Shown here piece after piece: positions 14,258 through 16,151 of a stretch of DNA of 64,000 nt. Location of the stretch: positions 4,774,001 to 4,838,000 of the forward strand of contig NZ_JQMO01000003.1 of NCBI RefSeq assembly GCF_000744785.1. Reading direction: 5' to 3'. Source of the DNA: Kitasatospora azatica KCTC 9699. Its GTDB lineage: Bacteria > Actinomycetota > Actinomycetes > Streptomycetales > Streptomycetaceae. Every line of letters begins with the position of its first letter. Positions within the stretch are counted from its first letter, which is position 1. The translations under genes were made by a program, and so were the position numbers. A model generated the notes under the pieces. The model had not been told where the DNA came from and made no database searches. It worked only from the letters and a program-made list of their open reading frames with translations.

Positions 14258-14638
14258 CCCCTGCGGGGCGCACTACGCGCGCTGCTGACGGCGACCGTCG
14301 AAGGAGCCGCCGCTGCGCCCGAGGACCTCACGGTGCTCAACGCGGCGTCCGCAGCCGCGCCCGGATGGGTGGAACTGACGGCCGATGTGGCACCGGTCGA
14401 GCACTGCACGGTGACGGGCCAGGAAGCGCGGCTCGCGGCCATCGCGCGCGACGCGATCTCCCTGCTGGCCGGGCCGCGAAGGGCGCAACTGCGGGCCTGC
14501 CAGGGCCCAGGGTGCATCCAGTTCTTCGTGAAGGACCACCCCAGGCGCGAATGGTGCTCGGCCGGCTGTGGGAACCGGGCCCGGGCAGCCCGGCACTACC
14601 GGCGAGTGCGGGACGGGGCGGGGGAGGGGGAGGGGTAG
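14252..14638 (+). pseudogene. CGNR zinc finger regulator, 3' fragment
   Basis: The open frame reads DAPLRGALRALLTATVEGA and ends with a complete CGNR zinc finger: CQGPGC, then WCSAGCGNRARAARHYRR. Full proteins of this family have an N-terminal domain of roughly 80-100 residues that is lacking here. No credible start or ribosome site precedes it; the first GTG is internal. Its broken end abuts the broken end of the MFS fragment, so both likely lost their 5' parts and shared promoter in one deletion. Confidence 0.8.
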
Positions 14639-14641
14639 CGG

Positions 14642-15214
14642 TTAGTGCTTGGGGCCGATGTGGCGGTCGAGCAGGGCGACGCAGTCGCGGCGGGCGATGG
14701 AGATGTTGGTAACGCCGTTTGTGCGTCGCACGGATTTCCAGCTCACTCCGACTGAGTCAAGCGCGCGGGTGAAGATGCCGATGATGTCGGTGGACGTGTT
14801 GGTGAGGAAGGAGCGGGGGTACTCGTAGCGCTTGGCCGTGCCGTTGACGGTGCGCGTGCTTCGGGTGCCCGCACCGGGCACCGCGCGCATGGCCTGCGCA
14901 CAGAGCTCGATGAGCCCGGGCCAGGCATTGCCGCACGCGATGCGCAGCGCGTAGACGGACTTGCGGCCCTCGCTGAGACAGCCGTCGCCCAGGTAGAGGC
15001 CGAGCAGGTAGCTGTAGTCCGCAGACGGCCGGTCGGCGGCGAGGCCGCTGGGTGTCAGGGGGCACTCGGCGGTCATGCGGGGGCTGGGGGTGGCGCCGAG
15101 GGCCCACTCGCGGATCGAGAAGCGGGAGATTCCAGCGGCCCGGCTGACTTCGCTGAAGGTGAGGCCCGAGCGGTGGAGGGCTATCGCGCGGGCTCGGGTT
15201 GCCTGGTCGTACAT
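14642..15214 (-). CDS. HTH / LAGLIDADG-like protein, short form
   Basis: A 190-residue protein. Residues about 1-35 are a helix-turn-helix of the kind found at the start of such proteins (SEVSRAAGISRFSIREWALG). Residues about 70-85 carry a LAGLIDADG-type motif (YLLGLYLGDGCL), followed by YALRIACGNAWPGL and a C-terminal segment NISIARRDCVALLDRHIGPK. From memory, full relatives are about 60-70 residues longer and hold a second motif like RGLIHSDG between these parts; that middle piece is absent here. The gene lies downstream of a tRNA on the same strand. It may be a domesticated or decaying homing-type protein; activity is doubtful. Confidence 0.7.
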   Translation of the reverse strand: MYDQATRARAIALHRSGLTFSEVSRAAGISRFSIREWALGATPSPRMTAECPLTPSGLAADRPSADYSYLLGLYLGDGCLSEGRKSVYALRIACGNAWPGLIELCAQAMRAVPGAGTRSTRTVNGTAKRYEYPRSFLTNTSTDIIGIFTRALDSVGVSWKSVRRTNGVTNISIARRDCVALLDRHIGPKH

Positions 15215-15334
15215 GCGACGAAAATTCGCAGAGAAACGGCCGACCGGCAGTGGGGATTGAGAGGAATCACCCGTACGTGCGATGGTCGACAGCCGTTGGG
15301 TCAGTACAGGCTGCCTTCGAAATGAAGGAAAAGT

Positions 15335-15408
15335 GCCCCGAGTGGGACTCGAACCCACACTGTAAGGTGTTTGAGACCTTCGCCTGCTGCCAATTGGGCT
15401 ATCGGGGC
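15335..15408 (-). tRNA. tRNA-Leu (anticodon CAA), class I-like fold
   Basis: The 74-nt sequence folds with a 7-bp acceptor stem (GCCCCGA/TCGGGGC), a 3-bp D stem with AATTGGCAG loop sequence typical of Leu tRNAs, a 5-bp anticodon stem (AAGGT/ACCTT) with loop CTCAAAC, and a 5-bp T stem with TTCGAGT loop. The anticodon is CAA, reading UUG (Leu), and the discriminator base is A. CCA is not encoded. The variable loop is only about five bases, whereas leucine tRNAs normally have a long arm. That makes the identity unusual. Confidence 0.8.
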
Positions 15409-15435
15409 CTAGCAATCGAAGGTGGACTCCCCTCC

Positions 15436-15445
15436 GAGTTAACTC
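15436..15445. promoter_or_regulatory. Palindrome between tRNA-Leu and pdtaR
   Basis: GAGTTAACTC is a perfect 10-bp palindrome, AT-rich for this genome, in the roughly 95-bp spacer between the divergent tRNA and pdtaR. It lies upstream of both and could be an operator or part of a promoter; nothing further supports this. Confidence 0.3.
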
Positions 15446-15503
15446 AAACATACAGGGTCTGGGTACTCTCGTGCATGCAGCCCCCGCCGGAACGAGGAGT
15501 CAC

Positions 15504-16151
15504 GTGAGCACCGCCGACGAGCAGCCCCAGGCGCTTGAGACCGACTCGCCCCAGATCACCCGAATTGTCATCGCCGAGGACGAGGCCCTGATTCGGCTCG
15601 ACCTGAAGGAGATGCTCGAGGAGGAGGGCTACACCGTGGTCGGTGAGGCCGGGGACGGGGAGACGGCGGTGAGGTTGGTGGAGGAGCTGAAGCCCGATCT
15701 GGCGATCCTCGACGTCAAGATGCCGATCCTGGACGGGCTCTCCGCGGCTGAGCGGATCCATGAGGCGCACCTGGCGCCGGTGCTGATGCTGACCGCGTTC
15801 TCGCAGCGGGAGCTGGTGGACCGGGCGCGGGACGCGGGCGCGATGGCGTACATCGTGAAGCCGTTCTCGAAGAGCGACCTGGTGCCGGCGATCGAGATGG
15901 CGGTGTCGCGGTACACGGAGATGCGGACGCTGGAGGAGGAGATCGCGGATCTCACCCAGCGGCTGGAGACGCGCAAGCTGGTGGACCGGGCGAAGAGCGT
16001 GCTGCAGACGAAGTTCGGGCTCACCGAGCCTGCCGCGTTCCGCTGGATCCAGAAGACCTCGATGGACCGTCGGATGACGATGGCGGCCGTTGCGGAGGCT
16101 GTGATCGAGGAGGGCGAGGCGCAGGACCGCAAGAAGGCCGAGGACCAGTAG
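15504..16151 (+). CDS. pdtaR: ANTAR-domain response regulator
   Basis: A 215-residue two-component response regulator that acts on RNA rather than DNA. The receiver domain (residues about 18-135) keeps the acidic pocket (E25, D26), the phosphorylated Asp D70 in LAILDVKMP and the Lys in IVKPFSKSDL. A coiled linker leads to the C-terminal ANTAR domain (about 150-205; LETRKLVDRAKSVLQTKFG), which binds paired stem-loops in mRNA leaders to prevent termination. The GTG start follows GAGGAG. The cognate kinase is not in the window. It sits next to pyk and the liv operon, as in other streptomycetes. Confidence 0.93.
   Translation: MSTADEQPQALETDSPQITRIVIAEDEALIRLDLKEMLEEEGYTVVGEAGDGETAVRLVEELKPDLAILDVKMPILDGLSAAERIHEAHLAPVLMLTAFSQRELVDRARDAGAMAYIVKPFSKSDLVPAIEMAVSRYTEMRTLEEEIADLTQRLETRKLVDRAKSVLQTKFGLTEPAAFRWIQKTSMDRRMTMAAVAEAVIEEGEAQDRKKAEDQ

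Follow-up and report, generated by a model that had tools for sequence, protein, structure and literature searches.

Bacterial leucine tRNAs are class II, with a long variable arm, and the architecture of a tRNA is treated as fixed by its amino acid identity. Animal mitochondrial leucine tRNAs have a short variable loop and are charged by a leucyl-tRNA synthetase (LeuRS). A stretch of 64,000 nucleotides from Kitasatospora azatica KCTC 9699 (contig NZ_JQMO01000003.1, positions 4,774,001 to 4,838,000), here called the window, contains a tRNA-Leu(CAA) gene of class I, followed by the decayed gene for a putative nuclease with helix-turn-helix (HTH) and LAGLIDADG domains. In relatives, the tRNA and the nuclease gene are replaced as a unit, and class I and class II tRNA-Leu(CAA) genes alternate at one site. 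The favored explanation, with a probability of roughly 0.7, is that a homing-endonuclease cassette co-converts a UUG-reading, LeuRS-charged tRNA gene, thereby swapping class I and class II alleles.

The window tRNA shares with bacterial class II leucine tRNAs, such as the bldA tRNA-Leu(UAA), the anticodon box, A73, an open 13-22 position, A15-U48 and a leucine-type D loop, but it lacks the long variable arm and has C.A in place of G.A at 13-22. It resembles the animal mitochondrial leucine tRNAs in its short variable loop. However, the mitochondrial case is organellar and fixed, whereas the tRNA described here is bacterial, is found beside class II isoacceptors and alternates with class II at a single locus.

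The SegB protein of phage T4 is a GIY-YIG enzyme. It is described as a free-standing homing endonuclease that favors inheritance of the T4 tRNA region, according to the title of a paper cited in PMC10448857 (Brok-Volchanskaya 2008). By analogy, both systems are free-standing and of the homing type, with tRNA genes that are, or here would be, carried along by gene conversion. Unlike phage-borne SegB, the HTH-LAGLIDADG gene is chromosomal and lies beside the only CAA isoacceptor of the cell, and the architecture of the tRNA changes. The monomeric LAGLIDADG endonucleases I-DmoI, I-AniI and I-Tsp061I have in common with the protein a predicted fold and two LAGLIDADG motifs, whereas here there is an N-terminal HTH, no intron or intein, and less than 20% identity.

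The features of the locus, in window coordinates, are as follows.

14430 to 15468, no strand assigned: approximate limits of the exchanged cassette, transferred from boundaries measured in relatives (L035/L146 and L060/L149)
14642 to 15214, minus strand: free-standing HTH and LAGLIDADG open reading frame (ORF) of 190 amino acids, a decayed copy whose start lies some 120 bp beyond the 3' end of the tRNA, in the same orientation
14981 to 15007, minus strand: first LAGLIDADG motif (LLGLYLGDG), retained
15334 to 15408, minus strand: tRNA-Leu(CAA), class I, 75 nt, from ARAGORN, Rfam, the fold and the alignment of relatives; acceptor stem 15402-15408/15335-15341, A73 at 15334, anticodon CAA at 15371-15373, variable loop ACAGT at 15359-15363
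15382 to 15399, minus strand: D arm of leucine type, with a 3-bp stem, open C13.A22, A14 and A15, and G18 and G19
15471 to 16151, plus strand: pdtaR-like ANTAR response regulator, the divergent neighbor and fixed left flank, with an uncertain start codon

Class I and class II genes at one site

A DNA match to the class I locus is found in 42 of 61 genomes of the genus. Thirty of these loci were read, and all are class I and beside pdtaR. The other 19 genomes have no class I gene and instead carry a class II tRNA-Leu(CAA) at the identical site. The mixture of classes extends to the second genus of the family and to family f14. PdtaR of the window shares 95% identity with its counterpart in Kitasatospora sp. 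Root107 and about 72% with PdtaR at Streptomyces loci, which makes Kitasatospora the most likely genus.

The alternation does not follow descent. On a LeuRS tree of 27 genomes, nine changes of tRNA class are required, eight of them forced by well supported branches, as compared to a mean of 9.2 for shuffled labels. Therefore, tRNA class is unlinked from ancestry, and a vertical split into class I and class II lineages can be ruled out.

Replacement of the tRNA gene and the nuclease gene as a unit is seen directly in pairs of otherwise near-identical genomes. Between a class I locus (L035) and a class II locus (L146), identity in the flanks is 95-100% as far as about -60 and from about +980 onward, whereas the interior is mostly 25-75% identical across the spacers, the tRNA and most of the ORF. 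The identity profiles of L060/L149 and L040/L158 are similar. The segment replaced in such class I/class II species pairs is roughly 1 kb; it begins 60 bp before the tRNA and ends about 900-980 bp past the tRNA 5' end. In addition, the tree of the nuclease follows the class of the tRNA, with five changes, as compared to a mean of 15.1 on shuffling and with none of 500 shuffles as low. In the genus there are three class I exceptions to this match (L034, L036 and L037), all with an enlarged D loop. Taken with the replaced segment, the agreement of the nuclease tree with tRNA class indicates that tRNA and nuclease travel together.

A leucine tRNA core without the long arm

The window gene is well supported as a tRNA. 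ARAGORN calls a tRNA-Leu(caa) at 15333-15408 on the minus strand, and the Rfam model RF00005 gives 57 bits for 15334-15408, where the cut-off is 29. The fold has a z-score of -2.26, and the minimum-free-energy structure shows the acceptor, anticodon and T stems. The comparison with relatives proposed by the initial annotation gives a wholly paired cloverleaf: across 15 relatives from the genus, 20 of 20 pairs are kept in every cell of the alignment (100%), and the acceptor and anticodon stems show compensatory changes. The CAA anticodon and the variable loop of about five bases that had been read from the sequence are confirmed, in that the loop is five nucleotides (ACAGT) rather than the long arm expected of a bacterial leucine tRNA. 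The gene itself was real as first described, but its extent was not: it is 75 nt at 15334-15408, and not 74 nt at 15335-15408. Likewise, the discriminator is A as claimed, and as A73 it lies at 15334, one base beyond the range first given. The gene lacks a 3' CCA. No sigma-70-like promoter consensus was found upstream of it, although such a consensus is uninformative for Streptomyces-type promoters.

The leucine character of the core was examined in 118 distinct class I genes, 107 with CAA and 11 with UAA anticodons, and in 50 distinct class II leucine tRNAs. The five-nucleotide variable loop is present in all 118 class I genes, as is C.A at 13-22. A73 is invariant in this set and the D stem consists of three covarying pairs. 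Class II leucine tRNAs also have an open 13-22, as G.A (47) or A.A (3) in 50 of 50, with A15 and A73 invariant, whereas 13-22 is paired in 43 of the 47 other class I tRNAs of this genome. Position 15-48 is always paired in the class I CAA set, as A-T (93) or G-C (14). The window gene thus has a leucine anticodon, A73, an open 13-22 and a 15-48 Levitt pair, the features used here to recognize a leucine tRNA; its D loop is one base longer than in most class I relatives. The pattern used to retrieve loci L182-L300 prescribes some of the anticodon arm, the variable loop and the T arm, and part of the conservation seen in those regions thus stems from the retrieval itself; it places no constraint on the D arm or the acceptor stem.

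Each genome examined has one match to LeuRS. No LeuRS residue separates class I from class II genomes, with no column significant after correction for 458 tests, and a lineage-specific adaptation of LeuRS is thereby ruled out. Given that the leucine core is kept and that there is a single LeuRS, the window tRNA is most likely an ordinary leucine tRNA core without the long arm, judging from its sequence, and the single LeuRS probably charges it along with the class II isoacceptors.

Leucine tRNA inventory and UUG decoding

The 8.3-Mb genome, in three contigs, is 99.99% complete. It has 72 tRNA matches, of which the potential leucine tRNAs were read individually. The class II genes are CAG, GAG (two), UAG and UAA, and the only CAA gene is the class I gene of the window. 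A second tRNA-Leu(CAA), of class II, was not found elsewhere in this 99.99% complete genome; the count of other CAA genes, suggested at the outset as a check, is zero. The relevant part of one report gives exactly one CAA gene (SCOt09 and its equivalents) for each of six Streptomyces genomes, with the class not stated (PMC4932002).

UUG was described initially as very rare, which does not hold. In 400 kb of this genome TTG occurs at 6.46 per 1000 codons, and the rare leucine codon is TTA (UUA), at 0.12 per 1000. When compared to a class II relative, TTG codons of this genome align with leucine at 176 of 193 conserved positions (107 TTG, 57 CTG and 12 CTC); 86 positions are not TTG in both genomes, and 69 of those are CTG or CTC. 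UUG is therefore read as leucine, and recoding of UUG can be set aside. The suggestion of a special UUG reader fits, in that the window gene is the only CAA-anticodon tRNA of the genome. Mutants in bldA are viable, implying that there is a second UUG reader.

Other unusual tRNA genes were met. L062 (G000:C3:94007-94173) is an extra, odd tRNA-His(GTG)-like gene of 31 bits that adjoins an extra tRNA-Ser(GCT). L075 (G000:C3:306433-306705) has an atypical tRNA-Val(TAC) beside a tRNA-like sequence whose anticodon is called, oddly, as four bases (ccgc), and a normal Val(TAC) gene is also present. L072, L073 and L078 (G000) are three differing tRNA-Cys(GCA) genes, one of them divergent, all with G.A at 13-22. 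The search for class I CAA genes also met tandem odd tRNA-Trp(CCA)-like and tRNA-Gly(GCC)-like genes at L139 (G009:C16:65100-68172).

Class I leucine tRNAs in Actinomycetota

Class I tRNA-Leu(CAA) adjoins pdtaR in many families of Actinomycetes and in other classes of the phylum, including metagenome-assembled genomes of Ilumatobacteraceae. Class I tRNA-Leu(UAA) is also found in many families of Actinomycetota, away from pdtaR. In genome G123 (family f4), CAA is class I and UAG, GAG and CAG are class II, and other f4 genomes have a class I UAA; G138 (f19) has a class I tRNA for each of the two UUR codons and class II UAG and GAG tRNAs. These inventories indicate a division between the leucine codon boxes in some members of the phylum, with class I tRNAs for UUR and class II tRNAs for CUN. 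The present genome has a class II UAA tRNA, the counterpart of bldA, and within its family CAA may be of either class. The class I tRNA-Leu(UAA) loci are L162, L165, L171-L173, L176-L181, L458-L460, L464-L466, L468-L470, L472, L473 and L475-L478.

The HTH-LAGLIDADG gene

Intact relatives of the ORF encode an N-terminal HTH and two LAGLIDADG motifs with the acidic residues kept. The copy in the window has lost the second motif by an internal deletion, with profile positions 115-186 missing at about 14864-14878. An AlphaFold2 model of an intact relative (L224, from Kitasatospora mediocidica) has a pLDDT of 87, and its top Foldseek matches are I-Tsp061I, I-AniI and I-DmoI, with E-values of about 1e-8 to 1e-6. 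The best PDB matches listed are LAGLIDADG endonucleases or maturases, and the protein is therefore predicted to have the LAGLIDADG fold. Among intact copies, the median dN/dS is 0.17.

At 49 loci of the genus, the nuclease gene is intact in 33, decayed in six and absent in ten; such coexistence of forms is as in a homing cycle. In a class-wide sample, the family occurs in 22 of 118 genomes, and in all 20 genomes where it could be placed it adjoins a leucine tRNA gene (19 CAA and one UAG). The gene is usually on the same strand as the tRNA and within about 130 bp downstream. Two relatives are arranged otherwise: L448 (G063, f4) is divergent beside a class II tRNA-Leu(UAG), not CAA, and L447 (G137, f16) is divergent beside a class II tRNA-Leu(CAA). 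Searches of phage and plasmid collections with tblastn gave no match in either, and an origin from these sources was rejected.

A proposed homing mechanism and its alternatives

In the proposed mechanism, a strain that has another allele would be cleaved by the nuclease in the tRNA gene or close to it, and repair from the donor would copy nuclease and tRNA together while leaving the flanks in place. The locus would thereby flip between class I and class II tRNA-Leu(CAA), and an allele would gain protection once it ceased to match the cut site. A tRNA gene does not readily tolerate an insertion, such that the nuclease sits behind the tRNA and takes it along. In this genome the nuclease has decayed and the tRNA is kept. 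That the protein is an active nuclease and causes the replacement is suggested by sequence comparison. It is conceivable, if rather doubtful, that tRNA class itself is the immunity marker, with the nuclease recognizing the tRNA-Leu(CAA) sequence of the other class and so both driving flips and protecting against them.

Several observations weigh against the homing explanation. The spacers beside the tRNA diverge even in pairs of the same class, and part of the divergence need not reflect exchange. About one third of the loci in the genus now have no intact nuclease, and neither do most class I loci outside Streptomycetaceae; at all of these, the nuclease would need to have acted in the past. 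Moreover, a bldA-type UAA tRNA could also read some UUG.

Ordinary homologous recombination could swap two old tRNA alleles, with the LAGLIDADG gene a passenger by proximity; the flanks are highly similar and recombine anyway, and loci without the gene are class I as well. This is unlikely, given that tRNA class is scattered as in random shuffles, suggesting biased conversion, and that the gene shows purifying selection, encodes a protein predicted to fold like homing endonucleases and, where placeable, occurs only beside leucine tRNA genes. A still less probable alternative is that the protein has been domesticated to serve the transcription, processing or quality control of this tRNA, rather than being a selfish nuclease. 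LAGLIDADG proteins can be domesticated, as for WhiA, and the constant position by a leucine tRNA would suit such a role. However, the gene is lost or decayed at 16 of the 49 loci of the genus while the tRNA stays, including in this very genome, and intact copies keep the acidic residues of the motifs.

It is very improbable that the class I tRNA bears an amino acid other than leucine or acts outside of translation, as in the odd charging or regulatory tRNA offered by the initial annotation. The class I shape is unusual for leucine, but the codon comparison assigns UUG to leucine, a class II tRNA-Leu(CAA) alternates at the same locus, and the core is of leucine type. Furthermore, a class I CAA tRNA is found beside class II CUN tRNAs in one f4 and one f19 genome, and UAA is also class I in the f19 genome and in other f4 genomes. 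Odd charging is also at variance with a LeuRS that is alike in class I and class II genomes, and no evidence for a regulatory tRNA was found.

Significance

A search of the open-access literature returned nothing relevant on a short-armed bacterial tRNA-Leu or a Streptomyces tRNA-like RNA, and no description of a tRNA-swapping cassette, which does not prove novelty. What looks to be new is that one locus has repeatedly exchanged its tRNA architecture through an apparent homing cassette. The linked LAGLIDADG gene and the alternation of classes, which form the main finding, had not been noticed in the initial annotation. In short, an orthologous tRNA gene, evidently functional, has changed many times from one class to the other within single genera that use the same LeuRS. 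Such loci provide natural matched pairs in which to ask how far LeuRS, EF-Tu and the ribosome depend on the long arm, and they illustrate the potential of a selfish endonuclease to remodel a central gene of translation. They also bear on tRNA annotation in actinomycetes, where UUA and UUG decoding governs development through bldA.
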